A DNA stretch of 64,000 nucleotides, from assembly GCA_003252455.1 (NCBI GenBank), contig QKED01000012.1:124001-188000 (forward strand). The letters run 5' to 3'. Position 1 is the stretch's first letter. Each line of letters starts with the position of its first letter. Source of the stretch: Gammaproteobacteria bacterium. GTDB taxonomy: Bacteria; Pseudomonadota; Gammaproteobacteria; Thiohalomonadales; Thiohalomonadaceae. Under the pieces are notes generated by a model, which worked only from the letters and a program-made list of their open reading frames with translations, was not told where the DNA came from and did no database searches. Positions 3,389-28,437 of this stretch are shown piece by piece. The translations under genes were made by a program, and so were the position numbers.

Positions 3389-3463
3389 TGACGAATACGT
3401 GAGGTGTTTGTCGACAAATCAGTGGCTTAGAGCCATATCCAGGGTGCGATGTAGGGTTTATCC

Positions 3464-6762: not shown

Positions 6763-6797
6763 CGACACGCACATGGGCTGATGGTTTGTCAGAGGTA

Positions 6798-7742: not shown

Positions 7743-7749
7743 AGCGACC

Positions 7750-9264: not shown

Positions 9265-10322
9265 TACCCGAGACTCCCCAGGGTGGCCAGCTCCCCGGCG
9301 GCAGGGGTGATGTCCGCCGACGGGCTGATGAGGAGATGGTCGGTCTCACCCGTGGCACTGGAGATCGCCTCACGGATATGGGTGATGGGCACGCGCCCGC
9401 TGCCGTTGCCATCCTCGACGGCGGCGCGCGCAAAGAGGTCGATCAGTTCCGCTTCGACGGCGGCACGTACGGCACTGGTGTCGGGGGTCACGCTCAGGGT
9501 GAAATCAACCGGGTAGGCGATCGGCGCGAACACGGTAGGCATGGCGGTAACCGGGCGTTTGGCGTCGATATGCGCCTGAACGCTGGCGACCTCGCTGGTG
9601 CCCGGGAAGGGGTCGGCATCCAGATCGCGCATGATCGCCACGCCGACGCTCCCAGCGCCCTGCCAGAGGGGCAGCGCCCAGGCGCGAGTCACGCCAGCGA
9701 CCTCCAGTGCCCAGCGCTCATAGTCGGCAGCGGAGCCGCCCTGGGCGGGGCTTTTGACACGCTGCATGAGGCGCGCGCGCAGGGCCTCGTCGCCCTCGGT
9801 GTCGGCACCTCCGGTCAGGCCCTCGGCCCCGACCAGAGCGCTCGACTGCAACCCGGAGATCGGGCTGACCAGGCTGAGCGGGGTGGATGCGCTGGTGTTA
9901 CCTGCCTGCCCGGCGCTCTGTGCCACCACCTCGACCGCCGTCGCGACCGCATCTAAGGTCACTTCGGTGAGGGTGGCATATTGGACACCATCGGTGCGCT
10001 GCAGCAGGGTGCCGGACGGGATGCGGGTCCCGGCGATACCACTCAGCGTGACGCTACCCGAGGCGGCGCTGGCCGCGAGGCGCGTGACGCCCCACCAGTC
10101 GGCGTGACGTTCGAGGTACTCCGTTTCGGCGCTATCGGGGAGGATCTGGCGGGAGAGATAGGCCACAAAGCCGTACACCCCGTGCAGCAGTCCGGCCCAG
10201 ACGCGGGCGAGCACGCCGAGGATGGACCAGCGTAAGCGGGGCTGTGTGCTGGGCAGACGACTCTCGATGTCGCTTTGAACTTGGTCGATGAGGGCGGCAA
10301 GGGTGGGGCGCTCAAACGGCAT
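9264..10322 (-). CDS. Baseplate J-like protein (Mu gp47 family)
   Basis: Wedge protein of the contractile baseplate, 352 residues from the chosen ATG (MPFERPTLAALI); the open frame continues ten codons upstream, but that overlaps more of gp46. The central part carries the baseplate_J pattern (IPSGTLLQRTDGVQYATLTE, then GGADTEGDEALRARLMQRV and GSAADYERWALEVAGVTRAW). It overlaps gp46 by 11 bp and gp48 by 1 bp, the tight packing of a tail operon. The length is normal for Mu gp47 (about 360). Confidence 0.92.
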   Translation of the reverse strand: MPFERPTLAALIDQVQSDIESRLPSTQPRLRWSILGVLARVWAGLLHGVYGFVAYLSRQILPDSAETEYLERHADWWGVTRLAASAASGSVTLSGIAGTRIPSGTLLQRTDGVQYATLTEVTLDAVATAVEVVAQSAGQAGNTSASTPLSLVSPISGLQSSALVGAEGLTGGADTEGDEALRARLMQRVKSPAQGGSAADYERWALEVAGVTRAWALPLWQGAGSVGVAIMRDLDADPFPGTSEVASVQAHIDAKRPVTAMPTVFAPIAYPVDFTLSVTPDTSAVRAAVEAELIDLFARAAVEDGNGSGRVPITHIREAISSATGETDHLLISPSADITPAAGELATLGSLG

Positions 10323-10728
10323 GGGACACCTCGACAGGGAATGAGCTGCCATTGGGCAGGGTGATCAATACGTGCAGGGTGAGGTGGCCCTGGGCGGACC
10401 ACGAGGCCGACACCTCGACCCCACTGGCGTGGCCATCTTCGACCAACCAGGCCAACGCCTGCTCGGCGTAGTGCAGCGCGGACTGGAGGGTCGCCGGGGT
10501 GCGCTTAGCGCGGGCGAGCAGCCACAGGCGGCTGCCGACCCGATCCCCCTCGACGGGTGGCCAGGCGTCGGCCCACCAGCCGCGACGGTCGCCGTCGTGG
10601 GGGTCGTCGGTCTCGGCACGGCGTTCGGCTAACAGGGAGAGGCGCACCGCTGTGGACAGGGTGTTGTCCGTAACGATGTCGGCGCCAGAGAGGTCGAGGT
10701 CTAAAGTGGGGGTGAGCGCGATGTCCAT
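10312..10728 (-). CDS. Mu gp46-like baseplate wedge protein
   Basis: The 138-residue protein is of the phage GP46 family, a baseplate component encoded between the spike and gp47. Family features include an N-terminal LSGADIVTDNTLSTAVRLSL, an Asp/Trp-rich DRRGWWADAWP segment and RVGSRLWLLARAKRTPATL. The length matches Mu gp46 (about 145). The gene is followed by gp47 with an 11-bp overlap and preceded by a 57-bp gap that holds one of the three dispersed GC-rich hairpins. Confidence 0.88.
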   Translation of the reverse strand: MDIALTPTLDLDLSGADIVTDNTLSTAVRLSLLAERRAETDDPHDGDRRGWWADAWPPVEGDRVGSRLWLLARAKRTPATLQSALHYAEQALAWLVEDGHASGVEVSASWSAQGHLTLHVLITLPNGSSFPVEVSHAV

Positions 10729-10760: not shown

Positions 10761-10784
10761 ACCCCCCGCCGGATGGCGGGGCGG
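10761..10784. repeat. Dispersed 24-bp hairpin repeat, copy A
   Basis: Core CCCCGCCGGATGGCGGGG, a perfect 7-bp stem with a 4-base loop, flanked by AC and CGG. The same 24 bp recur exactly at 19642-19665 and with one change at 20789-20812, always between genes of the prophage. There is no U-tract. Confidence 0.8.
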
Positions 10785-10785: not shown

Positions 10786-11388
10786 TTAGAGGGTGTGTGA
10801 GGGGGTCCCGGTGGTACCACCCGAGTCCCCCGGATGGGTATGGGTGTTGTAGGCACTGCGCAGGGCGGAGAGCGTGATCTCGGGGTCGGCGATGCTGGTG
10901 GCACTGCTGATGGCCCCTTGCGCGGCGAGGGTACCGCTGCTGGTCATGTCGCCCTGGTGGGTGAGCCGCCCGGTAATAGTGGTGTCGCCGGTGATCGTCG
11001 TGGTGCCAACAATCTCCACCGTCGGCGCCTTGATCTGGATGGCTTGCAGGCTCTCCAGCAACATACCGCTGCGCGTGAGGTAGACACGCTGCCCCTGGTC
11101 GTCGTGCAGCGCCACCTCGCCCTCCTCCAGGGCGGTGAGGTGGTAGCGACGATCGGCGACCTGCACCGCGACCGTGTGCCCCACGTCGCCACCGAGGGCG
11201 AGCAGGAGCGCCTCGGCACCGCTCTGCGGGCGGGCGCTGAGGCCGTAGGGTTGGAGATGATCGACACCGTCTAGGGTACCGACCAGACCCGTCACCTGGA
11301 GTCTCTGGTGCGCAGTGGCGGGATCACTCAGACGCACCAAGGCGCGGGTGGCGATGAGTTGGAGTTGGCGGCGTAGTTGGGTGAGCAT
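10786..11388 (-). CDS. Baseplate spike protein (Mu gp45 / gpV family)
   Basis: Central membrane-piercing spike of the contractile tail, 200 residues from the ATG that gives MLTQLRRQLQ; a second ATG four codons upstream is possible. The N-terminal part is an OB-fold-like domain (QVTGLVGTLDGVDHLQPYGL). The middle is a beta-helix-type repeat (TTTITGDTTITGRLTHQGD). The C-terminus ends with NTHTHPGD, the HxH metal-binding tip seen in P2 gpV and Mu gp45. An intact tip argues that the needle is functional. It overlaps the gp44 stop region by none and lies 57 bp before gp46. Confidence 0.9.
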   Translation of the reverse strand: MLTQLRRQLQLIATRALVRLSDPATAHQRLQVTGLVGTLDGVDHLQPYGLSARPQSGAEALLLALGGDVGHTVAVQVADRRYHLTALEEGEVALHDDQGQRVYLTRSGMLLESLQAIQIKAPTVEIVGTTTITGDTTITGRLTHQGDMTSSGTLAAQGAISSATSIADPEITLSALRSAYNTHTHPGDSGGTTGTPSHTL

Positions 11389-11390
11389 GA

Positions 11391-12446
11391 TCAGCTCCAT
11401 TTCTTCTCGGTATCGACGGGTTCTGGCTCTAGGATCATCTGGAAGGCCTCGATGGGCATCAGGGTGATCTCGGTACGGCTGCCGCTCTCGTCGAGCACGA
11501 AGTCGGTGGTGACGATGAGCCGTTTGTCGTCGATGCCCTGGTAGCTATCGCGCACCGGGACCCGTGTGTTGATCTGCCAAAGGCCGGTGGGGTTGTGCCA
11601 CCCCTGCACAGTGTAGGTCACCGACTGCGCACGCCCACGGCTGACCGCCGTCTGCCAGAGCGCGCGCGCCAGGCACTCGGTCTTGCTGACCTGACCCGAG
11701 GCGATGATCAAGCGGTGGCGAGTCGTGCGAATCTCCCCATCATAGGCATCCGCCTCACTGACGAGCTGTGGGTCCCACCGCTCCTCGGTCGCTGCCTGAC
11801 CGCGCACCCTCGTCAGTCTAAAGCGCTCACGATGGCTAAGACGCCCCTGGGCACTCAGGGTATTCACGCCCAGCTCGATGGCGCCACCAGAGTCGACGAG
11901 CCCCGCGCGGGTGATGAGCAGTGAGCCGTCGGACTGACTGACAAACCGCACGCCCCGGTGCCCGGCGAGCTTCTCCAGAAAGCTCCAGACGCTCTCACCT
12001 GGGTTCATCGCCACGTTTTTGAAGGGACCACCGAGCTCCACGTCGTTCAGATCGGTGGCCACCGCCACACCGTAGGTGCCTGCCAGGGTGACGGCGACCT
12101 GCATCAGTGTCTGGCCGCTCCACTGGCTCGCGTTGCCGTTGGCGGGTAGCCAGGTGGTGTCCACCAGTTCGCCAGCCAGGCTACGCCCTGAGACGCGGAT
12201 GCTGTGTTGTGTGGCGCTGTAGTCCATCGACACCTCGTCGACATAGCCCTTGACCACCGTCTGCCCGGCATAGGCGACGGTGCAGGGGGCGCCGGGGCGG
12301 ATGGGGCGCGCAACGGCGCCCTCCTTCCAGCGGTCGCTGGTCGAGAAGTCAAAGGAGTCGGCGACCTGCTCCATGGAGCGGCTCACGCGCAGGGATTTCC
12401 AGCCGCCGTAGACGACGCCGTCGACCTTGAGTGTCCACTCACTCAC
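11391..12446 (-). CDS. Tail hub protein (Mu gp44 / GPD family)
   Basis: Hub of the baseplate on which the spike sits; related to P2 gpD and T4 gp27. Start chosen at GTG 12446 (VSEWTLKVDGVVYGGWKSLR), giving 351 residues and an 8-bp overlap with the gene before; the longer open frame upstream has no family resemblance. Recognisable segments include VKGYVDEVSMDYSATQHSI, SGRSLAGELVDTTW and FLEKLAGHRGVRFVSQSDG. Mu gp44 is about 380 residues, so the length is compatible. Confidence 0.88.
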   Translation of the reverse strand: MSEWTLKVDGVVYGGWKSLRVSRSMEQVADSFDFSTSDRWKEGAVARPIRPGAPCTVAYAGQTVVKGYVDEVSMDYSATQHSIRVSGRSLAGELVDTTWLPANGNASQWSGQTLMQVAVTLAGTYGVAVATDLNDVELGGPFKNVAMNPGESVWSFLEKLAGHRGVRFVSQSDGSLLITRAGLVDSGGAIELGVNTLSAQGRLSHRERFRLTRVRGQAATEERWDPQLVSEADAYDGEIRTTRHRLIIASGQVSKTECLARALWQTAVSRGRAQSVTYTVQGWHNPTGLWQINTRVPVRDSYQGIDDKRLIVTTDFVLDESGSRTEITLMPIEAFQMILEPEPVDTEKKWS

Positions 12447-13644
12447 TGAGCAGCTCCAGGGGCATACCCGCGGGCACAAAAACGGGGTTGGCAATGTTGT
12501 TACGTACCACAACCTCCGCCTCACGACGGGCATCGCCGTAGCGCTGGTGGGCGATCACCAGTACCGGCAGGCCGCTGGGTGGGGTGTAGCTGACCAGCTT
12601 GGGTAGGCGCGCACCACGCAGGCGCAGGTCCGCGACCAGCGTAGTGCGTAGGGTGCCGATGGCGCGGTAGACGTCATCGTCTACCGGTGCACCGCTGGCG
12701 GGGTCGACCACTTCGACCACCGCATCGCACTGCTCGGCCAGGGTCGTGGCCATATTCAGCGCCTGGTCGCGGCTGGTGTAGTCGACCTCGGCGGCGGCAC
12801 TGGCGGCCCCGACCAGCGCCGTCTGCGCGAGCCAGGCATGCCAGGCGGCGGTGCTGCTCGCCTGGGTGCGGCGGTTTTGGGTCGTGAGTGGCACGCTCGG
12901 TGCGCCAGTGTCGGGATGGAAGAGGTCGCGATAAAGACCCAGAGCAACGAGCGGGCTCTGCGCCATGGCGGCCATCTCATTGAGGCCACCCAGTACGAGG
13001 GCCGTCATGTCGGCCGGGGTGTTGATGAGTTCACGCAGCCGTTCGGCCGCGGAGGTCACGGCGTGATGGGCATCTTCCAAGGTACGCGCCAATTCCGCTT
13101 GCAATTCGATCACCTGTGCCTGAGGGAGAGCGACATCCCAGCGCTTGGCAAAGGCGGCATCTGCGGCGCTCTGGAGGTCGCTTGCTGCACCTTTCACCCG
13201 ATCTTGGGTGTCATGCACGGCGGCCGGCATGGGCTGTTCACCACCACGGATAAAGGCCATGGTAAAGCGCGCACGCCCACCCTCACGACTCTCCTCGCTC
13301 CAGCTGAATTTACCCGCCAGGGTGACCCGCAGGGTGCCGAGAAAGGGGTGTACCAGGGTGCCTGAGCCGGGTTGCTCAAGCGCGTCGATCAGCGCATCGC
13401 GGGCGCGGGTATAGTCGCCATCGGCGGCGAGTGAGCCGTCGACGAACACCTCCAGCTCGATGCGCTTGGTCGCCGGACCGAGGTCCTCGACATAGGGCTG
13501 ATCACGCAGGGGGAACTCGTGCAGCTGGGTACGGCGGCCACTCTCGCCTCCCATCCGCCCGCTCATGACAAAACGGGCGCCCCTGAAACGACCGACCATA
13601 GGACGGCCGTCGGACTGTTGTTTGATTGTTTCGCGCCAGGCCAT
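12439..13644 (-). CDS. gpN-like DNA circulation family tail protein (Mu gp43)
   Basis: The 401-residue protein has the N-terminal domain of the Mu gp43 / DNA circularisation protein N family (MAWRETIKQQSDGRPMVGRF, RRTQLHEFPLRDQPYVEDLG, then ALEQPGSGTLVHPFLGTLRV). In contractile-tail operons this protein connects tape measure and hub; the old name comes from Mu N. The rest is helical with low identity to any motif I know. Gene order TMP-gp43-gp44 is canonical. Confidence 0.88.
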   Translation of the reverse strand: MAWRETIKQQSDGRPMVGRFRGARFVMSGRMGGESGRRTQLHEFPLRDQPYVEDLGPATKRIELEVFVDGSLAADGDYTRARDALIDALEQPGSGTLVHPFLGTLRVTLAGKFSWSEESREGGRARFTMAFIRGGEQPMPAAVHDTQDRVKGAASDLQSAADAAFAKRWDVALPQAQVIELQAELARTLEDAHHAVTSAAERLRELINTPADMTALVLGGLNEMAAMAQSPLVALGLYRDLFHPDTGAPSVPLTTQNRRTQASSTAAWHAWLAQTALVGAASAAAEVDYTSRDQALNMATTLAEQCDAVVEVVDPASGAPVDDDVYRAIGTLRTTLVADLRLRGARLPKLVSYTPPSGLPVLVIAHQRYGDARREAEVVVRNNIANPVFVPAGMPLELLSE

Positions 13645-15447: not shown

Positions 15448-15981
15448 CAGTCGGTCTCAAATAGGTGGCTTAGGCGCGTCAGCGGCTCGTGGCGAAGCGC
15501 CAAGATCGTCTCAATCCCCGCGCCCTTGCGGATCATCTGAGCCTCGCTCCGCATCAGCTCCAGAGCGAGACTCAGCCCCTCGCCCCCGCTGCGTCACCCC
15601 AGGGGACGCCGTCAGGCCACGCACGCTCAGCTTCTCGCTGAGCTGCTTTGCCGTAATGGCGCCACCAACGAAGTCGGCGTAGGCGTCGAGGACGTCGAGG
15701 TCCTCCTGGTGCAGGCGGTAGATGAGCGAGAGCTCCAGGGGGCCCACGAGTGGGCCGAGGCTGGCGATCTGCTGGCAGAGGATGAGCGCCCCGAGGCGGG
15801 CCGGGCTCTCGACCACGACCGGCACCGGGCGCCCGGCAACCGAGACGATCTCGACCTTCTCGGCGCCCTCTTTGGCCTCGATGAGCTGCCCGGCGGTGAG
15901 GTGGTCGTGCAGTTCGAACTCCTTGCACAACTCCTTACCGATCATCACGCCGTGCAGCAGCGTGCCCTTGATCCGCGCCAT
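15447..15981 (-). CDS. Tail assembly chaperone, -2 frameshift product (gp41-gp42 type)
   Basis: Reading switches by -2 at GGGGGCGA (15580-15587). After about codon 131 the ribosome continues with GEGLSLALELMRSEAQMIRK, then AGIETILALRHEPLTRLSHL, and ends FETD at a TGA that overlaps the tape-measure ATG. The shifted product is about 178 residues. Its C-terminal 45 residues look like a real amphipathic helical domain, unlike the unshifted tail. Long and short chaperone forms from one gene are a conserved feature of tailed phages; Mu itself is reported to use a -2 shift. Confidence 0.82.
15511..15981 (-). CDS. Tail assembly chaperone, short form (Mu gp41)
   Basis: The 156-residue unshifted product starts at the ATG in TGATG shared with the tube gene (MARIKGTLLHGVMIGKE); longer upstream frames lie inside the tube gene. 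The E14-type phage tail assembly domain spans about residues 10-125 (LTAGQLIEAKEGAEKVEIVS, YRLHQEDLDVLDAYADFVGG). It is a chaperone for the tape measure and is not part of the finished tail. The last 25 residues after the slip site are low-complexity (GRGAESRSGADAERGSDD), as expected of a frame read only without shifting. Confidence 0.88.
   Translation of the reverse strand: MARIKGTLLHGVMIGKELCKEFELHDHLTAGQLIEAKEGAEKVEIVSVAGRPVPVVVESPARLGALILCQQIASLGPLVGPLELSLIYRLHQEDLDVLDAYADFVGGAITAKQLSEKLSVRGLTASPGVTQRGRGAESRSGADAERGSDDPQGRGD
15580..15587 (-). promoter_or_regulatory. Programmed -2 frameshift slippery sequence
   Basis: The minus strand reads GGGGGCGA in frame CGG-GGG-CGA-GGG. This is the octamer I recall being reported for the Mu -2 shift. 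The +1/-2 frame is open from here to the tape-measure start, and a pure -1 shift would hit a stop within a few codons. Confidence 0.8.
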
Positions 15982-16328
15982 CAGACGCGCTCCGCCGGGT
16001 CGCCGTGGATGGTGAGCGGCGCCTTGCCACCATCGAGCGCGGGCGGGTCGACCATGCAGGCGTTGCGCACGATGTAGGTCTGGCCGGTGTCGCACTCGAT
16101 GATCGCGATGCCGTCACGCAGCTGGCTGAGGGTGGTGATGTCGGCGTCACGGTCGTGCAGCGCGGGGACGGTGACGATCGCCGGGCGATCCTCCTCGGTG
16201 TAGTACATGCGCCCACCGTGGGCCTCGGTGTTGCGACCGATGCCACCGGGGTCGAGGGTGACGTTGTTCTCGGTGAGCAGGCGCACACCGTTGAAGTTGA
16301 GTTTGAGTTTGCCGGTGATCTGAGGCAT
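15981..16328 (-). CDS. Tail tube protein (Mu gp40 family)
   Basis: The 115-residue inner tube protein polymerises inside the sheath. Family hallmarks are GKLKLNFNGVRLLTENNVTL, GIGRNTEAHGGRMYYTEEDR and the C-terminal CDTGQTYIVRNACMVDPPAL. The length equals that of Mu gp40/M (about 118). It lies 31 bp after the sheath gene, and its stop overlaps the chaperone start by one base, indicating translational coupling. Confidence 0.9.
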   Translation of the reverse strand: MPQITGKLKLNFNGVRLLTENNVTLDPGGIGRNTEAHGGRMYYTEEDRPAIVTVPALHDRDADITTLSQLRDGIAIIECDTGQTYIVRNACMVDPPALDGGKAPLTIHGDPAERV

Positions 16329-16359: not shown

Positions 16360-17841
16360 TTAGACGCGGAACTGGATGGCGGCGGCGAAGATACGGAACT
16401 GATTAATCAGGTCCGGCGGGATGACGGCGTTGACGCGGTTCGGGTCTTGCGAGCTGCGCACCACCTGCAGGTCGGCCTTGAACTGGTCGAGGTTTTCGAC
16501 CAGGCCCACCTCCTCCAGCTCGCGCATCAGGCCGATCAGCTCGGCGCGCAGCAGGTTGGGGGTGACGATGGGCTGACCGGGGGCGAAGTTGGTGCCGTCG
16601 TTGGCCAGCTTGTGGCGTGGGTAGCGCAGGGCGATACGGGCGCGCACGGCGAAGCGCACGGCGTCGAGGGTCCAGACCGTGTTGAGGTCGAGGAAGGCAC
16701 TGTCGGGGATACCACTGGCGTTGTTCTGGTAGGTGGTGACCACGCGCTCGATGTAGACGCTGCCGTCGTGGCCCACGTTGGTGGTGCTGATACCGTGGTC
16801 GAGGCGCACGTTGCGCTCGGCACGGCTCGGACGGCTCGCGGCGGGCGGCGCCAGCACGCCGGGCAGCGGCAGGGTCTGGAAGGGGCGGGCGGGGTCGATG
16901 GCACCGTGGTACTCGACCACCCCGGCCCAAGCGGCGGCCTGCTCCCAGGCCGGGGTCGGGCTGTCGTAGACGCCGAGCACGCTCACATGGGCGCTGTTGC
17001 GCACGTCGCCGTAGGTGACCAGATTGGCATGGGTATCGCTCACCGCCACGAAGAGGTGACCAGGGAGCTGGCCGAGACCATCCCAACGGCTCGCCTCCCA
17101 GTTCTCGAAGGCGGCGACATTGGTGGTGTCATGGAACGGCATGACGATGGTCTGGTAGACCTCATCGGCGATCACGTCGCCAAACAGCGCAGAGATGTCG
17201 GGGTTACCGCTACCGCCGCTCATAGCGTCGATGGTGACATTGAGGCCAGCGGGGTTGCGCTCGGCGGGGCCGTAGGCCGTGCGGATGTCGATCTCGTTAC
17301 CGGGTTCGCCGTCGTTGCGGGCGGTGAGGTCGACTTGCGTGTTGTTCACCCCATTGACCACGGCGGTGACGGGGAGGTCGGTCTGTGCGGCGATGTTCGC
17401 GGCGATGGCGGCGGCCACGCTGGCCGCGGTGTCACCATTGCTCACAGGCACCTGCAGGCGTACACCCGCGACGTAGAACGGCCAGGCGTAAGACTCGGTC
17501 GCGGTCCCACTGACACTGATGGTGGCTGTGGCGGCGACGCCAGCGACGGCGTCGTCCACGGCGATGGCCCAGCACTCGGTGGTCGGGTTGGCGGCGAAGA
17601 GCTTGCGTGCCATCAGGTGGCCGACAGAGCCGCGCCCGAACAGGCGCTCGGCCTCGACGCTGCCGGTGAGTAGTACCAGGTCGTTGGCCACGGCCTCACC
17701 GGCGGCGAGCTTGGGGGCGATGAGCAGCATGCGGCGCGGCTCGCCGACCAGGCCGGTGACGGCCTTGGAGGCGTCGACCTCGATGTATTGCCCAGGGGTG
17801 AGCAGGTTTACCGGGATGGTGTTGAATGGAATATTGTCCAC
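16360..17841 (-). CDS. Contractile tail sheath protein (Mu gp39 / L family)
   Basis: The 493-residue sheath subunit shows the contractile-tail class. The N-terminus (NIPVNLLTPGQYIEVDASKA type) and the C-terminal half (RNVRLDHGISTTNVGHDGSV, then YIERVVTTYQNN and FLDLNTVWTLDAVRFAVRAR) are typical. The C-terminal arm ends in IPPDLINQFRIFAAAIQFRV, the strand that locks neighbouring subunits. Mu L is 495 residues. No truncation or stop is seen, so the contraction machinery appears intact. Confidence 0.93.
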   Translation of the reverse strand: MDNIPFNTIPVNLLTPGQYIEVDASKAVTGLVGEPRRMLLIAPKLAAGEAVANDLVLLTGSVEAERLFGRGSVGHLMARKLFAANPTTECWAIAVDDAVAGVAATATISVSGTATESYAWPFYVAGVRLQVPVSNGDTAASVAAAIAANIAAQTDLPVTAVVNGVNNTQVDLTARNDGEPGNEIDIRTAYGPAERNPAGLNVTIDAMSGGSGNPDISALFGDVIADEVYQTIVMPFHDTTNVAAFENWEASRWDGLGQLPGHLFVAVSDTHANLVTYGDVRNSAHVSVLGVYDSPTPAWEQAAAWAGVVEYHGAIDPARPFQTLPLPGVLAPPAASRPSRAERNVRLDHGISTTNVGHDGSVYIERVVTTYQNNASGIPDSAFLDLNTVWTLDAVRFAVRARIALRYPRHKLANDGTNFAPGQPIVTPNLLRAELIGLMRELEEVGLVENLDQFKADLQVVRSSQDPNRVNAVIPPDLINQFRIFAAAIQFRV

Positions 17842-17844: not shown

Positions 17845-18228
17845 TTACTCCTCAGGGATGATGCGGGTGAGGCCAAGCTGGCCGATCAGGTCGAGCCATG
17901 GCGTGTCTAGGTCGATGATGGATTCGTCGAGAAATTGTTGGCATTCGGGCAACGACGGGATGTCATCGCCCATCTCACGCTGGCGATAGGCCAGGCTGAC
18001 GTAGGCGTGTAGCGCTTGCGGGTCGTTGGCTACGGCGCCGAATAGGTCGCGCAGATGCGCTGACGGACTCTGGATGTGCGCGGCGAGGTGCGATGGCACA
18101 CCCGCGCTGGCGAGCACGGCGCAGCCCTCGGAGAAGGTGCGGTTGCCCTCCGGGCCGATAGCGACCACGGCGGCCACCCGGTTACCCAGCTCGCGCAGTT
18201 CGATAGGGATGATCACGGTGAGGCCCAT
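17845..18228 (-). CDS. Small tail-module protein of unknown function
   Basis: The 127-residue protein lies between gp37 and the sheath. It starts with MGLTVIIPIELRELGNRVAA and contains a helical segment with LPECQQFLDESIIDLDTPWL. The ATG overlaps the TGA of gp37 (TGATG) and the stop lies 3 bp before the sheath start, so it belongs to the operon. The position corresponds to Mu gp38, but I cannot confirm homology from sequence. It may be a tail completion factor. Confidence 0.7.
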   Translation of the reverse strand: MGLTVIIPIELRELGNRVAAVVAIGPEGNRTFSEGCAVLASAGVPSHLAAHIQSPSAHLRDLFGAVANDPQALHAYVSLAYRQREMGDDIPSLPECQQFLDESIIDLDTPWLDLIGQLGLTRIIPEE

Positions 18229-19490
18229 CACGCGACTCCGTACTCACTCATCAGCTCGGCGTGCCAGTCGGCTAGCTGCTGCTCGGTGTAGATGGCGTGG
18301 CGCACCTCCAGATGCTCCAGGGCGAGGCCGTAGCCGACGTAGGCGCTATAAAGGGCGTCAGCGACGGTGGCGTCGAGGCCTTGGCAACCGTTGGCGGTGG
18401 AGGCGACGCGCGTACCGTCGGCCCAGATCTCCAACTCGTCACCGACATAGATCGTCAGCACCCGCCGCTTGGTCGTCAGATCGCCCGCAAGGTAGGAGAT
18501 ATCGCGCCTGCCGAGCACGGTCTGGGCGCGCAGCATCAGCCGGTTGCCACCGCTCATGGTGACGGAGAGCTGGTGGAACGGCACCGTTCCGTAGCTCCAA
18601 AAGACCGGCACGCCCGACTCGGGCCAGAGGCCGACGAAGGTCATGGCGATGCCAGTGGTCGCATGCGGGAAGCGGTAGGCCAGGTTGTGCTGGTCGTCGA
18701 CCGGGTCATAGACGACCCGCTGCGGGCTCGGATAGGCACGCGGGAAGCGTGACTCGATAGTCTGCACCAGGTCGTACGCATAGGGGCTGGCATCGAGCCA
18801 GGACGGCACCGCAAGGCCTTCGAGCGGGTTGACACCCTCTAGGTCGATGGCGTCCGCGCGCACAAGCAGGTGGCGATCCACATAGCTCAGATTGCCGCCA
18901 CCGAGCGCGATGAGATCCTTGGCGTCGGGATGGCCGAGGATCTCGATCTCATCCAGCCACTCGTCACGTGCGGCATCGGATGAGGCCGGCGTAATGTCGT
19001 AACTGATCGCGGCGGTAAGCAGCTCGTCGAGCGTCTCCTCCACGTTGCCAATCAGGTCGACGGCCTGACGCCAGGTGATGGACCAGACCGCCACGCCGTC
19101 GGCGTCATAGAGGTTGCTCGCGTTGATCTCTCGCGGCAGGTTCGCCGCCAGCGCCCAGCGATTGCCCTCGATGAGCGTACCGAGAAGGTCGATCAGCATC
19201 AGGGCGAGGTCGTCACGGTCGCGCATCTGCTCCAGATAGACGAAGTCTTTAGTGATGACCCACGCCACCCAGAGGGCGTCGGCCTCATGCTGACCACCGC
19301 TCTCCTCGACGCCCTCAAACCCTAGACAGCCGACGAGCACCACAGGCGCGTCCACCACGAGGGTACTCAACTCCTCGGCTTCGGCGCGCCCACGGTAGGT
19401 ACTCACGGTGGGGGCCAACGCGGGGTCGAGGTGGGCGCGGATGGCGTCGGTGATGGCTTGGCGTACGCTGAGAAGACTCTGGCTGCTCAT
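18228..19490 (-). CDS. gp37-like (DUF1834) tail terminator with LamG-like C-terminal domain
   Basis: Residues 1-150 match the Mu gp37/DUF1834 family (LLSVRQAITDAIRAHLDPAL, VWSITWRQAVDLIG), a protein at the head-proximal end of the tail. The usual family length is about 150-190. Here about 230 further residues follow; residues 240-420 resemble a concanavalin A-like/LamG jelly roll (ATTGIAMTFVGLWPE, RRVLTIYVGDELEIWADGTR, EHLEVRHAIYTEQQLADWHA). Such domains bind glycans or proteins. In a particle without a head this end would be exposed. The assignment of the C-terminal fold is by pattern only. Confidence 0.78.
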   Translation of the reverse strand: MSSQSLLSVRQAITDAIRAHLDPALAPTVSTYRGRAEAEELSTLVVDAPVVLVGCLGFEGVEESGGQHEADALWVAWVITKDFVYLEQMRDRDDLALMLIDLLGTLIEGNRWALAANLPREINASNLYDADGVAVWSITWRQAVDLIGNVEETLDELLTAAISYDITPASSDAARDEWLDEIEILGHPDAKDLIALGGGNLSYVDRHLLVRADAIDLEGVNPLEGLAVPSWLDASPYAYDLVQTIESRFPRAYPSPQRVVYDPVDDQHNLAYRFPHATTGIAMTFVGLWPESGVPVFWSYGTVPFHQLSVTMSGGNRLMLRAQTVLGRRDISYLAGDLTTKRRVLTIYVGDELEIWADGTRVASTANGCQGLDATVADALYSAYVGYGLALEHLEVRHAIYTEQQLADWHAELMSEYGVA

Positions 19491-19609
19491 CGGGGGACCT
19501 CCACGTGCCCGGCGCGTTGCGTAGCGCAGAAGTGCACGCCTAGCCCGACGCCTGAGGGGGCGTCGAGCGGCTCGGCGAGCCTGTCGGGATGGGCGTTGGA
19601 TTGGAACAT
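19487..19609 (-). CDS. Possible small gene coupled to gp37
   Basis: This short frame ends with an ATGA overlap on the gp37 start, the arrangement of coupled genes. From the internal ATG at 19609 it gives 40 residues (MFQSNAHPDRLAEPLDAPSG and on). The frame is open back to an ATG at 19708, but that part runs through the copy-B hairpin. No family is recognised. It may be the stub of a gene that lay at the head-tail junction. Confidence 0.35.
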   Translation of the reverse strand: MFQSNAHPDRLAEPLDAPSGVGLGVHFCATQRAGHVEVPR

Positions 19610-19641
19610 GAGGGCCAGATTAAACAGCCCTGGGTGCAGTG

Positions 19642-19665
19642 ACCCCCCGCCGGATGGCGGGGCGG
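19642..19665. repeat. Dispersed 24-bp hairpin repeat, copy B
   Basis: Identical to copy A at 10761-10784 (core CCCCGCCGGATGGCGGGG). It sits at the junction just upstream of gp37, where the head genes would be expected. It is therefore a candidate scar of recombination between dispersed copies. Confidence 0.8.
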
Positions 19666-19699
19666 CCTGCGCGTGCATAGCGGGTGCGTCGCACACCCT

Positions 19700-19863
19700 C
19701 ACCTGCATGGCGGGGTTGGAGTGAACGTGGGCGTGGTCCCCGGGACGTTGAGCCTGGCGCGGTCAGGGCCGATGCGGATCCCATCTACCGCCCCTGGATT
19801 ACCCCTGGCGGACAGGGCGTCGAGCAAGGTACGGGTGAGGCACACAGCGCCAGCAGTGACCAC
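19700..19863 (-). CDS. Doubtful short frame in the head-module gap
   Basis: This frame of about 54 codons has a possible GTG start. It reads VVTAGAVCLTRTLLDALSAR and then GIRIGPDRARLNVPGTTPTF with an ordered, protein-like composition. Its stop overlaps the ATG at 19708 by 9 bases. No ribosome site is visible and no family is recognised. It may be the remnant C-terminus of a deleted gene, or spurious. Confidence 0.25.
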
Positions 19864-20376
19864 TTGAGCGTGGCATCGCTCCTGTCCACACGGCCATGCC
19901 CGCCACAGCCGCGTGTACGGCCCGTGGCGGCACGATCGCCCCCTGGCTTATACCACCCATGCAATCGATACCTCGACGGCCCTCCTTCGCGCGCACAGGG
20001 GCTACTGGCGTCGTGCCCCAGGGGGGGCTTGTCCTGTCCTCTCCCAACCGTATCGTCAATCCCGCGCGTAGAGGTGGTCTGTGGTCATCGCCTTTGCTCG
20101 TCCCTGTGCCCTGGAGAAGACATACGTTAGCGCTGCGCGACCGGATACGACGCTCATCGATGTGGACGATCCGTGGCGTATGACTGGGCACCGCATGGGA
20201 GGGGCCCGTGTATCCGATCGCCCGCCGGTGGGGTGTGGATGCGAATCAGCGCGACCCTGTGGCGGTTTACTGGGCTGGGCGTCGGTCTGAACATGTGCGT
20301 GCTGGCGGTGAGCTGCACGCTGTGGTGTAGGGCATGGGGTGGGGCCTACCTCGGGGTCGAGGGGGGCGTGCTTTAA
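19709..20376. other. Head-module gap: about 0.7 kb without a recognised gene
   Basis: This interval lies where Mu-like elements carry about 10 kb of terminase, portal, protease and capsid genes. I find no remnant of any of them in six frames. On the plus strand, a GTG at about 20209 preceded by GGGAGG opens a 40-codon frame (YPIARRWGVDANQRDPVAVY and on). Another small frame (ATG about 20239, hydrophobic middle) ends at 20376, touching the DUF2730 stop. Either could be a small inserted gene; neither is convincing. Confidence 0.55.
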
Positions 20377-20727
20377 TCAGGTGAGGCCCTTCTCGGCGAT
20401 GCGGGCAAGGATAAGGCGTTGGGTCTCACTCAAGCCTTTCAGTTCGCCCTGGACGTTGCGCACCGAGCCACTGACCTCACCGAGGGCACGGGAGAGGGTG
20501 CGCAGCTCGTCGTAGAGTTTGCCGAGGTCTTCGTGGGTGGGGGCGCCGCGATGCTGCTCTTCGAGCCGCGCGATGCGTTGGGCGTGGTCTTGCTTGAGGG
20601 CGTCGAGGCTTTCGTTGGTGGCACGACTCCTCGACGTGAGGTGGACATAAAAGGCCACGCCCCAGGTGAGGGCGAAGTTGGATATGGCAATGCCGAGGGT
20701 GATGCTTTGCGCGGTTGATGGGTCCAT
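20377..20727 (-). CDS. DUF2730 membrane-anchored coiled-coil protein
   Basis: The 116-residue protein has one N-terminal membrane helix (about residues 8-30, ITLGIAISNFALTWGVAFYV). A long charged coiled coil follows to the end (DALKQDHAQRIARLEEQH, YDELRTLSRALGEVSGSV). It matches the DUF2730/Mu gp25-26-like family found between lysis and terminase genes of Mu-type phages. Its exact role is unknown. In complete relatives the next gene is the small terminase (DUF3486); here it is missing. Confidence 0.8.
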   Translation of the reverse strand: MDPSTAQSITLGIAISNFALTWGVAFYVHLTSRSRATNESLDALKQDHAQRIARLEEQHRGAPTHEDLGKLYDELRTLSRALGEVSGSVRNVQGELKGLSETQRLILARIAEKGLT

Positions 20728-20788: not shown

Positions 20789-20812
20789 ACCCCCCGCCGG
20801 TTGGCGGGGCGG
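20789..20812. repeat. Dispersed 24-bp hairpin repeat, copy C
   Basis: Same element as copies A and B with one base changed in the loop (GGTT for GGAT). It lies between the DUF2730 gene and the membrane-protein gene upstream. Confidence 0.8.
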
Positions 20813-20906: not shown

Positions 20907-21527
20907 TTATTGAATGCGCACCTCGGCGTAGAACTGGAGGGCGTCCTTGTTTTGCCAGCGTAAGGAGTATTGCACCGTGTCTTCACCGGCGGAGGTGATG
21001 AGGGTGGCCCTGCAGGAACGGATCTCGTCGGTGGCGTTGTAGCCCTGTTCGGTGATCCCCTTGAGGCTGACAAAGCGGGCACCTGAGGCCTTGGCGATGG
21101 GGAGATCGTTGATGATGGAGGCGACCACATGGGCGGTCTCGGCGGCGTCGCAGGTAGGGAGCTGCTGCGCGGCGGTACCGAGGGCGGCGAGGGCGACCCA
21201 GGAGCCACCGATGATGGCGAATACAGTGGCCTTGGCGGCGCGCCCCTTGACCTCGACGGGGTGCTCCTGGGCGCGCTCGATGAGGGCCTTGCGCTTGATG
21301 AGATAGAGGGGGAAGGTGACGATCCAGAGGCCGAGGGTGACGATGCCCCAGACGCCGGCGGAGTTGTTGGTGAGACCACTGATGCCTTCGACCTTACCAA
21401 TTTTGTGCTTGGTGGCATCAAGATAGACCCAGATGGGCGTCAGGGCGATAACGGCAATTATGGCGAGATTGAGTATAACGCTGATTCCTTGTAGCAAGTA
21501 TCCGTGGATGGGTGAATAGCGCCGCAC
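20907..21527 (-). CDS. Phage-encoded three-helix membrane protein
   Basis: The 206-residue protein has hydrophobic helices near 12-35 (ISVILNLAIIAVIALTPIWV), 58-80 (WGIVTLGLWIVTFPLYL) and 97-115 (TVFAIIGGSWVALAALG). A soluble C-terminal domain of about 85 residues follows (SLKGITEQGYNATDEIRSC and on). It starts at a GTG with no clear ribosome site. The position after Mor is where Mu carries lysis genes, so a holin-like role is conceivable. However, the large soluble domain is unusual for a holin and no endolysin is near. Function unknown. Confidence 0.6.
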   Translation of the reverse strand: MRRYSPIHGYLLQGISVILNLAIIAVIALTPIWVYLDATKHKIGKVEGISGLTNNSAGVWGIVTLGLWIVTFPLYLIKRKALIERAQEHPVEVKGRAAKATVFAIIGGSWVALAALGTAAQQLPTCDAAETAHVVASIINDLPIAKASGARFVSLKGITEQGYNATDEIRSCRATLITSAGEDTVQYSLRWQNKDALQFYAEVRIQ

Positions 21528-21613: not shown

Positions 21614-22117
21614 CTAGCGGTAGCGGCGCACGATGGTCTCGGTGATACCGAGCTCCAAGGCGACCTGGCGAACGCTGTGGCCAGCGGCACAGCGGGCGCG
21701 GATGAGGCGACGGCGGGCGTGGTAGAGGTCGCGTTCAGCGGTGGGGATGTGCTGGTCGCTCCCGCCGAGGTGGCGTGCGATGACGTGGGCCGCCTCCCGA
21801 CCGACTACGGTGGCGATGGGGTGGGCCGCATCGGGCAGGGTGGGGATGAAGAGCTTTGTGCCACCGAACGCCTCGGCAAGGTCGAGTGCGCGCTGGGCGG
21901 CCTCCATCTCATCCCAGCCTTCACACACGAGGGCGTCGCGCACACGGCCGAGGAAGCCGACCAGTTCGTGGGGCTGAATCTGCTCACGGGCAAGGTGCCA
22001 CCAGCGGGGGCGACCACTGGGCGCAGGACGCTCGGCTTGGCGGGGGGGGGCAGGGATAGGGCCGTCGGGGGGGCGTCCTGGGCCATCGAGGTGGTCGATG
22101 TTTACGGGTTTTGACAT
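21614..22117 (-). CDS. mor: Mor-family middle transcription activator
   Basis: The 167-residue activator is homologous to Mu Mor, which switches on middle transcription. A Pro-rich N-terminus (1-45) precedes the Mor domain: LAEAFGGTKLFIPTLPDAAH, GREAAHVIARHLGG, and a C-terminal helix-turn-helix (GHSVRQVALELGITETIVRR, residues about 146-165). It starts at ATG 22117. Its gene follows gemA with one possible small gene between. An intact activator suggests the late tail operon can still be induced. Confidence 0.85.
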   Translation of the reverse strand: MSKPVNIDHLDGPGRPPDGPIPAPPRQAERPAPSGRPRWWHLAREQIQPHELVGFLGRVRDALVCEGWDEMEAAQRALDLAEAFGGTKLFIPTLPDAAHPIATVVGREAAHVIARHLGGSDQHIPTAERDLYHARRRLIRARCAAGHSVRQVALELGITETIVRRYR

Positions 22118-22260
22118 GGCTGCGCTTTCCAGTTGTTGCTCTTACTGTCGGAGATAGCGTTGGGGCGTCGGGTAGACGCGCTTCGGGGCCTGCAGACACG
22201 GGTTTCGCCATTGACCCAAGCGGTGTGCTCACCCTGGCAGATGTGCGTGCCACTGCTCAT
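22102..22260 (-). CDS. Possible 52-residue protein between gemA and mor
   Basis: The ATG overlaps the gemA stop (ATGA) and the stop lies 16 bases inside mor, the spacing of a real coupled phage gene. The frame reads MSSGTHICQGEHTAWVNGE and on, with three cysteines. No family recognised. Confidence 0.4.
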   Translation of the reverse strand: MSSGTHICQGEHTAWVNGETRVCRPRSASTRRPNAISDSKSNNWKAQPCQNP

Positions 22261-22697
22261 GCGGGTCTCGCCTGTTTGCGTTGCTCGCGCTCGACCCAGC
22301 CCTTGAGGGCTTCAATCACGAGGCGCTTGTGAGCGGCACGCAGAAAGCGGCGGGTGGTGATGCCGGTCTGACGTTGGATGAAGTGGTCGAGGCCCTTTTC
22401 ATCGGGTTCTCGCAGGGCGCCGAGGCGCTCTAGCGCGCCCCACAGGGCGAGGATCTTGGCCTCCTGTGGGTCTCCCGCTGGCCGCCGCGTGGCGACACGG
22501 TGGACGGCCCTCCAGCCGCAGGCGTGGAAGTGTGCGAGGACGCGCGCGCGCCCGGCGGGAGAGAGGTCCGCGGCACTGCCACTGGCGGCCTCACCGGCGG
22601 TGCGGATGATTTGACGGTAAGTGGCGTCATCCAGGCCGAGGGCCTTTTTCGCAAGGTGAATCTTGGCCAGATCGGCGGTGCGGGAGGTATTGCTCAC
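22257..22697 (-). CDS. gemA: GemA-like protein (Mu gp16, DUF1018)
   Basis: The 146-residue early protein is of the DUF1018 family. Motifs include DLAKIHLAKKALGLDDATYR, LSPAGRARVLAHFHACGW and LDHFIQRQTGITTRRFL. In Mu, gemA/gp16 modulates host gene expression and DNA supercoiling. It sits immediately before mor, as in Mu. The length is slightly shorter than Mu gp16 (about 190). Confidence 0.85.
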   Translation of the reverse strand: MSNTSRTADLAKIHLAKKALGLDDATYRQIIRTAGEAASGSAADLSPAGRARVLAHFHACGWRAVHRVATRRPAGDPQEAKILALWGALERLGALREPDEKGLDHFIQRQTGITTRRFLRAAHKRLVIEALKGWVEREQRKQARPA

Positions 22698-24190: not shown

Positions 24191-24271
24191 GGTGTTACTC
24201 CTTGGTGGGCTGCTCATCAGGCCCGGTGCGCCACCACCGGACGACCCCGCACAGGCGGGGTTTCGCTGCGC

Positions 24272-25018: not shown

Positions 25019-25581
25019 GGAGTCTTCTCCTTACGTGGTTTGAGAGGGCAAAAAATCTGCCCGGTGTTGTGATCACAAAATTGCTGGCCACGCTCACCCC
25101 AGGTGGGTGCCTTGGGGCCGGTGTTCTGCACGAGAAGCCAGCGATAGTTGCCATAGGTGCCGTAGCGCTGGGCATATCCAGCTCGCTCCAAAACGCGTAG
25201 ATAGCGCTGAATGCCGCGGCGTAGATGCGCGCTGGGCTCTGCCACTGCGACGAGGGGCAAGAGGTCGTCTAGGCTGGCTTTAACCAGACAGCGCAGGGCG
25301 CGCCAGATGCGCATGCGCAGCTCACGACCCTTGGCGTGTTTGCCTGAGGGGCCGACCGGGGAGCGTGCCGCACTGGCTGCGTGACCTTTGTCGGTGACAA
25401 CCCAGACGTTGCCCCCCGGGCTAGCGACCCAGTGACGCCCCTGGAGGGCGATCAATCGGGCGTGAACCTGCACGGCCGACCAGCCGAGACGGGTGCTGAT
25501 CTGTTCGACACTCTGGGCCTCCTGGCCCTGACTCAGGTGGTGAAGGAGGTGCATCGCACTCGCACCGCGCGCGGTATTCAT
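25015..25581 (-). CDS. Winged-helix-like phage protein, unknown
   Basis: The 188-residue protein has an N-terminal part resembling a winged helix (QSVEQISTRLGWSAVQVHAR, LIALQGRHWVASPGGNVWVV). A second helical block follows (LRRGIQRYLRVLERAGYAQR). It overlaps B (ATGA) and HU (4 bp), so it is part of the transposition operon. It may be a DNA-binding accessory factor; this is not proven. Confidence 0.6.
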   Translation of the reverse strand: MNTARGASAMHLLHHLSQGQEAQSVEQISTRLGWSAVQVHARLIALQGRHWVASPGGNVWVVTDKGHAASAARSPVGPSGKHAKGRELRMRIWRALRCLVKASLDDLLPLVAVAEPSAHLRRGIQRYLRVLERAGYAQRYGTYGNYRWLLVQNTGPKAPTWGERGQQFCDHNTGQIFCPLKPRKEKTP

Positions 25582-26342
25582 GCGCCACTCCGACGGGCCT
25601 TCGCCGCCAGCGCCTCGATATCACGCACCAGCTCTCTGCCGTGCATGTGCACTGCGCTCACACGGGTGAGGCCGTTGCGCTTGGCCTGAGACTCAATGTG
25701 GGCGATGGCATTGAGGATGAGACGGGCACGACCCTGCGCCTCGCGTTCGATGCGCGAGACCAGGTCGTCGGCGATCTCGACTTCGGCCAGTTGGTCGCAG
25801 AGGGTGCGCACGTCTCTGCCGGTGTTGGGCCTGAACTCGACAATGTCGGCGAGGCGACTGTAGATCTGGTCGCGCTTTTTCAGGTGGTGGGCGATACGCC
25901 CCATGCCGACGAGGATGACCGGGATCTCTGTGAGGTCGGAGAGGTCTCGTAAGGTCTCTAAGATGGCACGGTCGTGGGTCGTGTTTTCGGCCTCGTCGAT
26001 GACGATGGCGGGGTAGCGTTCAGCGTTGTATTCGGCCTCGTCTTGCGCTCGGGTGATGGCGGCAACCGCCTGGGTGAAAAGGTCCTTGGTGCAGTGCTGC
26101 GGGGCATCGCCATAGGCCTCGACGATCTCCTTGAGCGCCCAGCGCGCGGTCCAGGCCGTTTTGGCACGCAGATAGGCGGCACCGGTGTGCACACACCACC
26201 AACTGACCGTAGCGCTCTTGCCGTAGCCGGCAAAGCCATGCACGAGCAGCCAGGAGGCCTCGGTCGCACCGCGTTCAGCTACGCTTTGAGTACCCTGTAG
26301 AAAACGTAATACGTTAGATGTTTTTGCGAATTCATGGCGCAT
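25578..26342 (-). CDS. MuB-like AAA+ ATPase, transposition target selector
   Basis: The 254-residue ATPase is of the MuB/TniB/ExeA-like group. It starts at MRHEFAKTSNVLRFLQGTQS, 10 bp after the transposase; longer frames overlap gene A. Walker A is GFAGYGKS (residues 35-42) and Walker B is PAIVIDEAEN (111-120), followed by a sensor region ILVGMGRIAHHLKKRD. It should coat target DNA, recruit transposase and provide target immunity. Mu B is 312 residues; this one lacks the N-terminal helix-turn-helix of Mu B, as do many relatives. Confidence 0.9.
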   Translation of the reverse strand: MRHEFAKTSNVLRFLQGTQSVAERGATEASWLLVHGFAGYGKSATVSWWCVHTGAAYLRAKTAWTARWALKEIVEAYGDAPQHCTKDLFTQAVAAITRAQDEAEYNAERYPAIVIDEAENTTHDRAILETLRDLSDLTEIPVILVGMGRIAHHLKKRDQIYSRLADIVEFRPNTGRDVRTLCDQLAEVEIADDLVSRIEREAQGRARLILNAIAHIESQAKRNGLTRVSAVHMHGRELVRDIEALAAKARRSGA

Positions 26343-26352
26343 GGTGCGGCTC

Positions 26353-28437
26353 CTATGCGTAGAAAAGCTGGAATTCTTGGGTGGTCTGATACCAGTCGAG
26401 CCAACGGCTGTCGTCTGGGGTCTGTTCTGCCGGGTGGGCCGTGAGCCACTCATATTTGTCCGCATCGGTGCCGAACAGGCGCCGCGATGCGGTCGGATGG
26501 TCGAGCAGCTCGGCGCCCCTTGTGTGCATCTCATTTGACACAACCGGCCCACGTTCGATGGGCAGTGTCGCTACCATGCGGTCGCACCTTGGTGCCGCGA
26601 GGTCTCGCGTTAGGGCGTCATCCCCGGCATGTTCGAGTACAACACCCTGTCCGCGCGCATATTCGAGGTTGACCTCATCGAGCTTGCGCTCGGCGCGCTT
26701 GGCACGCCCTTCGTAACGACGGTCACGGGCCTGCTCGATGACCGGCTTAGGGAAGTAGTCACGCTTGTTGGCGTCCCACTCGGCGATGGCGATGAGGCGA
26801 CCCTGCCGGTCGCGCACCCACACACGTGCGGCGTCATGGATGTCGTATCCAACCTCGACGAGGTCGCCGTGGTAGTGCTCCAAGTCAGGGTGGAAGTAGT
26901 GGTTGTTGAACAGACGCACCATGCCACGCGCGACCTTCACACCAGACTTATACGGGCGGAATAGATCGGCGGCCTCGGCCTGTTCGACCCGCACAGGGGC
27001 AACACCCTCCTCCTGGGCCCTTGTGAGACCGAGCTGCCAGGCCTCTAGCGGGGTCTGGTGGCGCAGCTCGCCACTCTCCGGATCGCGACGCTTGGGGAGG
27101 CCGGTGTGCGGGGTGGCGTTGTACTCGTTGCGCACCTGCTCAAGGTAGGCAACGAAGTCGCGCCAGGCGATCAGCTCCTTGGCGCGACCGCCCTCTTTTA
27201 ACGCGGCACGGGTGAGCCTGAAGACCTTGTGCTTGGCCTCGGGGTCCATCTTGGCACCGATATAGGTGGGCAACTGCTGAGCAGCGCGCACCCAGAGGGT
27301 CTGGTGAGAGCGCTCGCCGATGCCGCGCGACTGGGAGTTGTAGGGGAGGCTGAACTCCTGAGAGACGTGGAGCCGGTCGAGCAGGGTGGCCATTACTTCG
27401 TTACGAAAGCCTGCGCCACGGTCGGTGTACCAGATGGCGGGAATACCAAAGGATTCGCAGGCATGACGGAAGGCGTCAGCGACGGTCCATGTACTCTCGG
27501 CGAGACCGACGGAGTAGCCGACACAGACGCGGGTGGCGACGTCGATTACACCGGTCACCTCGGGGCGGAACGGCTGACCGTGATCGGGGTGCTGAACCTC
27601 GGCATCGAAGGTGTGACCGTCGGCGGTGTAGACATCGGCGGGCAACAGACTCGACGTATCGCGAATGATGTAGGGACGCAGCGCCTTGAGTTCACGCGGC
27701 CCCAGGCGCCCGGCATAGCGCGTAGTGGTGCTGAGCTTCTTGAGAAAGCGCTTGGCTTGGTCGTAGCTCGGCGGCTCGACACCCTCACTGAGGTGAGCGG
27801 GGAGTTTGGCGATGCAGGCCGCGAGGCTGGGCTTTTGTGGCTGACCGTAGATCTTGAGCAGGGGTAGCGCCCAGGCTGGGGGGGGCACGGGCTCGGCCTT
27901 TTTGGGCGCGAGGGCACGCTGCCCCTCTTTGTTGAGAGCGGTGCGCCAGCGGTAGAGCGTGCGTGGACTCAGACTGTTGCTGGCACGCTTGTGGCCGCTC
28001 TTGGCGTTAGCAACCACGATCAGCGCCTGCAGGCGCTCTGGGAGCTGGCCATCGGCGGCGAGGGCACACAGACGGCGCGAGGCCGCATCGATGCCGATGC
28101 CACCAGCGGCAAGGCGGTCGAGTTCATTAAGAAGGGCGAGGCGTGCGGTGAGGCGCTCACGCTGCCACTCGGCAAGCTGGGCCGTGTCGGCACCGAGGCT
28201 CTTGGCTGGCAGGAGAGGTTCGCTCGGCTCGACAGGGCGCTGATCCGTCAACGCCCGGGCGATGAGTGCATCGCGTACGTCGACAGGCAGGCCTGCGATC
28301 GGATAGAGACGGCGGGTGCCACCGAGACAAGTCTCGCTCTGGTAGTCCCACCCCTGACGCTGGGCACGACGACGGGCGCTGGAGACGTTGACGCCGATAG
28401 CGCTGGCGATCTCTTGCATGGTAGCAGTGCTGCGCAT
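26353..28437 (-). CDS. Mu-type DDE transposase (MuA family)
   Basis: The 694-residue transposase cuts and joins the element ends. The N-terminus has a helix-turn-helix (MQEIASAIGVNVSSARRRAQ). The end-binding helical region spans about 70-240. The integrase core holds the catalytic triad D273 (YTADGHTFD), D339 (YTDRGAGF) and E375 (GIGERSH). A Mu-C beta-barrel region and a basic C-terminal tail that would contact B follow (about 530-694). In Mu the triad is D269, D336 and E392. No stop or frameshift is present, so mobility is plausible. Confidence 0.95.
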   Translation of the reverse strand: MRSTATMQEIASAIGVNVSSARRRAQRQGWDYQSETCLGGTRRLYPIAGLPVDVRDALIARALTDQRPVEPSEPLLPAKSLGADTAQLAEWQRERLTARLALLNELDRLAAGGIGIDAASRRLCALAADGQLPERLQALIVVANAKSGHKRASNSLSPRTLYRWRTALNKEGQRALAPKKAEPVPPPAWALPLLKIYGQPQKPSLAACIAKLPAHLSEGVEPPSYDQAKRFLKKLSTTTRYAGRLGPRELKALRPYIIRDTSSLLPADVYTADGHTFDAEVQHPDHGQPFRPEVTGVIDVATRVCVGYSVGLAESTWTVADAFRHACESFGIPAIWYTDRGAGFRNEVMATLLDRLHVSQEFSLPYNSQSRGIGERSHQTLWVRAAQQLPTYIGAKMDPEAKHKVFRLTRAALKEGGRAKELIAWRDFVAYLEQVRNEYNATPHTGLPKRRDPESGELRHQTPLEAWQLGLTRAQEEGVAPVRVEQAEAADLFRPYKSGVKVARGMVRLFNNHYFHPDLEHYHGDLVEVGYDIHDAARVWVRDRQGRLIAIAEWDANKRDYFPKPVIEQARDRRYEGRAKRAERKLDEVNLEYARGQGVVLEHAGDDALTRDLAAPRCDRMVATLPIERGPVVSNEMHTRGAELLDHPTASRRLFGTDADKYEWLTAHPAEQTPDDSRWLDWYQTTQEFQLFYA

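Follow-up and report, generated by a model that had tools for sequence, protein, structure and literature searches.

Can a Mu-like prophage that has lost its head genes persist as a weapon made of tails alone, still carried from site to site by its own transposase? The question is raised by an element in a 64,000-nucleotide stretch of a gammaproteobacterial genome of the Thiohalomonadaceae (GCA_003252455.1; 4.58 Mb, 99.7% complete, 118 contigs), namely positions 124001-188000 of a 190,606-bp contig (QKED01000012.1, here C87). This stretch is called the window, and all coordinates refer to it. The element in it is a real Mu-derived, headless, transposase-bearing tail element. That its headless tails may act in the manner of a tailocin, with A and B still able to move it, is a reading drawn from its genes, to which we give a probability of about 0.48.

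A Mu-like element with a tail module and no head module

According to PHROG and Pfam scans of the open reading frames (ORFs), some of whose starts are uncertain (MuB, gp41), a Mu-like gene series spans approximately 29.7 to 6.8 kb of the window, on the minus strand except for the c repressor (plus strand). The early part follows the order of Mu, with c, MuA, MuB, a helix-turn-helix (HTH) protein, an HU-like protein, GemA, Mor and DUF2730, and the late part runs from gp37 through a gp38-position protein, sheath, tube, chaperone, tape measure, N, P, gp45, gp46, gp47 and gp48 to the fibre (Table 1). The tail block from gp37 to the fibre comprises 13 ORFs over 12.6 kb, all without stop codons (about 106 stops are expected in random sequence of the same composition), and its genes carry the normal codon-position GC signal, about 0.67/0.48/0.82. 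The c, A, B, GemA and Mor frames are open as well. The MuA of the window, whose best phage match is the DMS3 group (42%), keeps the D-D-E residues: both D align to positions 269 and 336 of MuA, and the conserved E sits in a GER motif that lies a few columns off E392 of MuA and is kept among its relatives. The original prediction, that the tail module is intact and that transposase, B, Mor and repressor are too, therefore holds, the latter four having matches to phrog_310, phrog_296, phrog_836 and phrog_4, respectively.

In the Mu record, genes 26-36, between the DUF2730-type gene and gp37, encode mainly packaging and head proteins. At the corresponding site of the window (19491-20376), neither PHROG nor Pfam detected a terminase, portal, protease, capsid or other head or packaging family, and six-frame fragments of the gap gave zero matches to home-made profiles for TerS, TerL, portal, F, G, I, T, gp35 and gp36, in agreement with the head and packaging module having been called missing there. 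No remnants of head genes in the gap came to light in these profile searches or in searches for genomic copies and phage records: the gap core has no second genomic copy except a 24-bp hairpin and no match among phage records. The label "portal" that phrog_490 attaches to gp37 is a quirk of the gp37 family, the Mu gp37 record being likewise labelled "portal protein", and Pfam gives Phage_Mu_Gp37. The cut had also been described as clean; it does fall at the boundary between head and tail modules, but 0.67 kb of non-coding DNA (19709-20376, with a GC of 0.64-0.68 at each codon position and hence no coding signal) and a doubtful 73-aa ORF remain there. Recognisable lysis genes, on which the original prediction is silent, are absent as well.

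An assembly gap, or head genes of the same phage elsewhere in the genome, would speak against this reading, and neither was found. The cut lies within the 190,606-bp contig, and a stretch of 21,044 nt spanning it is the same, letter for letter, in IMG/VR contig 3300028422_001959, which is possibly from the same sample, so the identity confirms the assembly, not independence. The sole Mu-type portal of the host genome lies on a 22-kb contig (C89) that also bears TerS, TerL, F and G; upstream lie Mor, Gam and a GemA-like protein. Contig C62 carries MuA and MuB together with genes for protease, scaffold and capsid, and its tail is syntenic with that of the window. C62 and C89 have no end sequence in common, so we infer their joining; they fit one divergent-arm phage because a 37-kb contig (G095:C66) carries that whole layout: one arm has A, B, TerL, portal, F and what by eye is a muramidase-like gene, and the other has protease, capsid and tail. 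Divergent-arm Mu-like phages are thus represented by L009 with L007/L008 (G000:C62 and C89) and by L124/L125 (G095:C66), and the idea that C62, without terminase and portal, was a second headless element was dropped once the layout of G095:C66 had been seen. In a sheath tree the C62 phage and the window element fall in separate clades, so the C89/C62 head genes are not those lost by the window phage: the one other Mu head set of the genome is that of another phage, which has a tail of its own. Between the two elements, the gp48-fibre DNA is 77% identical over 1.87 kb and the upstream proteins share 30-56% amino-acid identity, which suggests an exchange of the receptor-binding end.

Table 1. 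Features of the Mu-like element, with positions in the window
Feature	Position	Strand	Evidence or remark
c repressor, CI-like with UmuD-like domain, divergent from early operon	28913..29719	+	phrog_4 E 5e-51
Ner-like HTH protein	28456..28734	-	weak HTH_3/HTH_35 match; position between c and A
MuA-type transposase	26353..28437	-	phrog_310 E 1e-151; alignment to MuA
MuB-type transposition ATPase, start uncertain	25578..26552	-	phrog_296 E 7e-43; AAA_22/TniB
Mu gp16 (GemA)-like	22257..22697	-	phrog_286 E 3e-31; profile built from Mu gp16
Mor/C-type late transcription activator	21614..22117	-	phrog_836 E 9e-19
206-aa membrane protein at usual lysis-gene position	20907..21527	-	no endolysin/holin match in Pfam, PHROGs
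22-bp GC hairpin copy 3, 64 bp before DUF2730	20791..20812	.	one of three genomic copies
DUF2730 protein (Mu gp25-like), final gene ahead of missing head module	20377..20727	-	phrog_736 E 4e-10; PF10805 E 5e-4
Site of missing genes 26-36	19491..20376	.	core 19709-20376 (0.67 kb) non-coding, plus most of doubtful 73-aa ORF 19487-19708
22-bp GC hairpin copy 2, 155 bp before gp37	19644..19665	.	one of three genomic copies
gp37, first tail gene kept	18228..19490	-	PF08873 E 2.5e-4; phrog_490 E 1e-17
gp38-position protein	17845..18231	-	44% identity to C62 counterpart
Tail sheath (L)	16360..17841	-	phrog_165 E 7e-178
Tail tube (M)	15981..16328	-	phrog_185 E 2e-16
Tail assembly chaperone (gp41), start uncertain, longest ORF from 16095	15511..15981	-	phrog_508 E 2e-19
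Tape measure protein, 599 aa	13648..15447	-	phrog_973 E 5e-17
N (DNA circularisation/baseplate hub)	12439..13644	-	phrog_184 E 5e-78
P (baseplate hub)	11391..12464 (longest ORF 11391-12533)	-	phrog_177 E 5e-92
gp45 (spike/V-like)	10786..11400	-	PF06890 E 9e-18
22-bp GC hairpin copy 1, before gp46	10763..10784	.	one of three genomic copies
gp46 baseplate wedge	10312..10728	-	phrog_180 E 1e-41
gp47 baseplate wedge	9264..10322 (longest ORF 9264-10352)	-	phrog_6 E 4e-79
gp48 with C-terminal extension of ~310 aa	7750..9264	-	phrog_203 E 8e-47; PF10076
Tail fibre/collar protein	6798..7742	-	phrog_1858 E 8e-48; PF07484

The 22-bp GC-rich hairpin occurs in exactly three copies genome-wide, all inside the element, one each a short way upstream of gp46, gp37 and DUF2730, and two of the three lie either side of the cut. 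The C-terminal extensions of gp37 (~230 aa) and gp48 are common to the window element and the C62 phage and have no Pfam match; the predicted structure of gp37 has a pLDDT (predicted local distance difference test score) of 43, too low for a structure search. A type II hammerhead ribozyme (Rfam RF02276, 60.8 bits) is found at 24204-24268 on the minus strand, in the early region of the element.

Sheath relatives and the Marinomonas elements

Among the 80 sheath relatives from GTDB genomes that lie nearest to the window element, a Mu head is present in many and a head of another type (by eye) in several, while nine appear headless, those of Chitiniphilus (two), Jeongeupia, Insolitispirillum, an Oceanospirillaceae metagenome-assembled genome (MAG), a Mariprofundaceae MAG, Dethiosulfatarculus, Azospirillum and Marinomonas spartinae; for Dethiosulfatarculus a Mu portal is present on another contig. 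MuA and MuB beside the tail were seen, among these nine, only in M. spartinae. The Chitinibacteraceae sheath relatives of the window element likewise appear headless. Static headless Mu-type tails that carry regulator and lysis genes also occur (L074), and a static headless Mu-type tail cluster (L214:287-3730), near the Marinomonas clade, directly adjoins two atpD-/atpC-like genes (by eye) and has a Mor homologue and no transposase in the stretch examined. Closer to the host, 9 of 370 genomes of its class carry the window sheath type (11 loci). Seven loci from genomes other than the host comprise four with Mu-type heads (L260, L262, L263, L266), two with other kinds of head by eye (L261, L265) and L264, which has protease and capsid with no portal seen; the contig of L267 (8.6 kb) is too short to judge. 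No such locus from other genomes of the class (L260-L267) is demonstrably headless.

The same layout without head genes is found in M. spartinae (G096) and in two further genomes of the genus (G159 and G160), where the element consists of c, ner, A, B, Mor, an amidase endolysin, a holin of the gene transfer agent (GTA) type, DUF2730, cargo, gp37, the tail and several fibre genes. The lysis genes expected of an R-type tailocin are thus present in the Marinomonas elements. No Mu portal occurs anywhere in these three genomes, and one is present in two other Marinomonas with related tails. The chromosomal place of the element is common to G096 and G159 and different in G160, and a conserved left end, TGTCACTT, was found, with no target duplication and no clean empty site. 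The cargo at the former head site differs among the three. G096 has there an AHH nuclease, a DUF6881 gene and a paralogue called Imm11-like for its similarity to the Imm11 matches next to it; G159 has PemK, DUF6881, MesX and methionine synthase; and G160 has HicB together with lamin-tail-domain and transglutaminase-like proteins. At one such locus (L106), AHH-nuclease genes with Imm11-like partners lie at 2274-4207 and 6741-8059, one pair being exactly at the former head site.

Selection on these elements was estimated as the ratio of nonsynonymous to synonymous substitution rates (dN/dS), by Nei-Gojobori counts. Between G096 and G159, dN/dS is 0-0.27 where defined (dS 0-0.35), in tail, lysis, regulatory and transposition genes alike, and between G096 and G160 it is 0.02-0.22, with gp48 undefined, these values being rough since dS is mostly >1. 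No compared Marinomonas gene has an internal stop. By these counts the tail, lysis and transposition genes of Marinomonas are under strong purifying selection, which supports a selected function for this class, as a useless tail and transposase would be expected to look otherwise, and a tailocin-like function of the clade is likely. Because the sheath tree sets the window element apart from the Marinomonas clade, the headless state with a transposase is, on that tree, one that arose at least twice. The search for syntenic elements in relatives, proposed in the original prediction, has therefore given the same layout, kept by selection, in three Marinomonas genomes, but one of separate origin.

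Proposed mechanism and competing readings

In Mu, derepression leads to expression of A, B and the early genes, then of Mor, and then of the late genes. The window element would descend from a Mu-like prophage that lost genes 26-36 (packaging, portal, protease, capsid, head-tail connector) en bloc, the lysis cassette apparently having been lost along with them. Relief of repression would turn on the early genes and Mor, Mor would turn on the late operon, and this operon, gp37 to fibre alone, would give contractile tails and no virion. With late products that would amount to a tail without a virion, a tailocin is the simplest use: the headless tails may kill as R-type tailocins do, while A and B would continue to move the element within the genome. 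Either release would proceed through a gene not recognised as such, for instance the 206-aa membrane protein ahead of DUF2730, or through a co-resident phage, or the window element is already defective.

A headless tailocin-like particle on a transposition system, as first proposed, draws support from the genes and their order and from the same layout being selected in Marinomonas; the idea that this copy makes particles is weakened by the lack of recognisable lysis genes and of convincing ends. Several observations count against the proposal. Pfam and PHROGs reveal no recognisable endolysin or holin in the window element, unlike in Marinomonas; no convincing pair of TG...CA ends with a 5-bp target duplication was found; the non-coding 0.67 kb at the cut resembles a scar; and dN/dS between the window and C62 is 0.11-0.87 with dS near saturation, uninformative except for fibre (0.11) and gp47 (0.22), there being no closer relative. 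Moreover, since the window and Marinomonas elements arose separately, selection in the latter is no proof of function in the former. The missing lysis genes, the scar and the lack of a target duplication fit a fairly recent internal deletion that took the head and lysis genes, leaving a functionless element whose tail and transposition frames stay open merely for want of time to decay. Such a deletion is a serious possibility, although one we rate somewhat below even odds: the element is single-copy, with no conserved copy in the host's family and no headless transposase-bearing relative of its lineage in the sampled genomes, yet frames and coding signal are intact in c, A, B, Mor and all 13 tail ORFs, its cut falls exactly at the head/tail boundary, which also holds for one or more other lineages with an outcome under selection, and its Chitinibacteraceae sheath relatives appear to have no heads either.

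Two further readings concern the second phage of the host. The window element could be a satellite that supplies tails, takes heads and packaging from the C62+C89 phage and could still be packaged; the genome does hold one Mu-type head set, on C89 plus C62, and the similar gp48-fibre DNA means that both tails probably meet the same receptor. This is very improbable, as the would-be helper has a complete tail of its own with a sheath in a different clade, the window element has no packaging gene, and the Marinomonas genomes of the same layout have no Mu portal. Least probable of all is an artefact of assembly or binning that placed the head module of the same phage on another contig. The number of contigs, and the short one that bears the Mu head module, might invite it, but the cut lies inside a long contig that IMG/VR reproduces, though possibly from the same data, and the C89 module comes with a Mor, a GemA-like protein and a Gam of its own and matches the type of the C62 phage, seen whole in G095:C66.

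Relation to known systems and wider meaning

Set beside an R-type tailocin, the window element has a complete contractile tail, baseplate and fibre set and no capsid, portal or terminase, but it has no recognised lysis genes and, instead of a fixed locus free of replication and integration genes, it carries MuA, MuB and c. It is therefore not classed as an R-type tailocin, for want of lysis genes and of a fixed, transposase-free locus. Set beside a Mu-like phage, it has MuA, MuB, c and Mor in Mu order but no terminase, portal, protease or capsid genes, and is not classed as a complete Mu-like phage because the head genes are missing. With Mu and Casadabanvirus DMS3 it shares the order c-A-B-GemA-Mor-DUF2730, and its tail order from gp37 to gp48 is that of Mu; unlike them, it is without genes 26-36 and has no recognised Mu-type lysis cassette.

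A Mu-derived R-type tailocin is known in Pseudomonas syringae (Hockett 2015, as cited in PMC12090994). This syringacin resembles the window element in having a Mu-lineage contractile tail and no head genes, with a headless particle expected. It is a fixed chromosomal tailocin and is not known to have MuA or MuB; the window element has retained A, B and c, and no lysis genes are recognised in it. MEDPRO2, an R-type bacteriocin of Marinomonas mediterranea for which killing was shown, is closest to the R2 pyocin of P. aeruginosa, spans 12-13 kb and has no DNA-replication genes (PMC10870725); it is, like the M. spartinae element, a headless contractile tail cluster in Marinomonas, but the latter is of Mu type with A and B. 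BceTMilo of Burkholderia cenocepacia is a P2/KL3-related defective prophage with spanin and endolysin genes and no transposase reported (PMC5411513), and shares with the window element a synteny break exactly at the boundary of the head and tail modules. No tailocin with MuA/MuB is described in the literature searched, in which Mu- and P2-derived ones are, most subscription papers lying outside the search.

Transposable headless contractile tails, or jumping tail weapons, probably exist. More tentatively, at a little short of even odds, we propose transposable tailocins as a class in which heads were discarded for good, transposition, regulation and tail are under purifying selection, and the head site is reused for exchangeable cargo (nuclease-immunity pairs, toxin-antitoxin genes and metabolic genes in Marinomonas), with at least two origins, in Marinomonas and in the window lineage. 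Tailocins are usually regarded as fixed, domesticated chromosomal loci. If the proposal is true, elements in which a headless weapon is joined to working Mu-type transposition would supply a missing step on the way from prophage to tailocin, and would explain how tail weapons can spread to new genomic sites without packaging. The Marinomonas copies, whose genes are selected though virions are no longer possible, make the idea testable in cultured strains.

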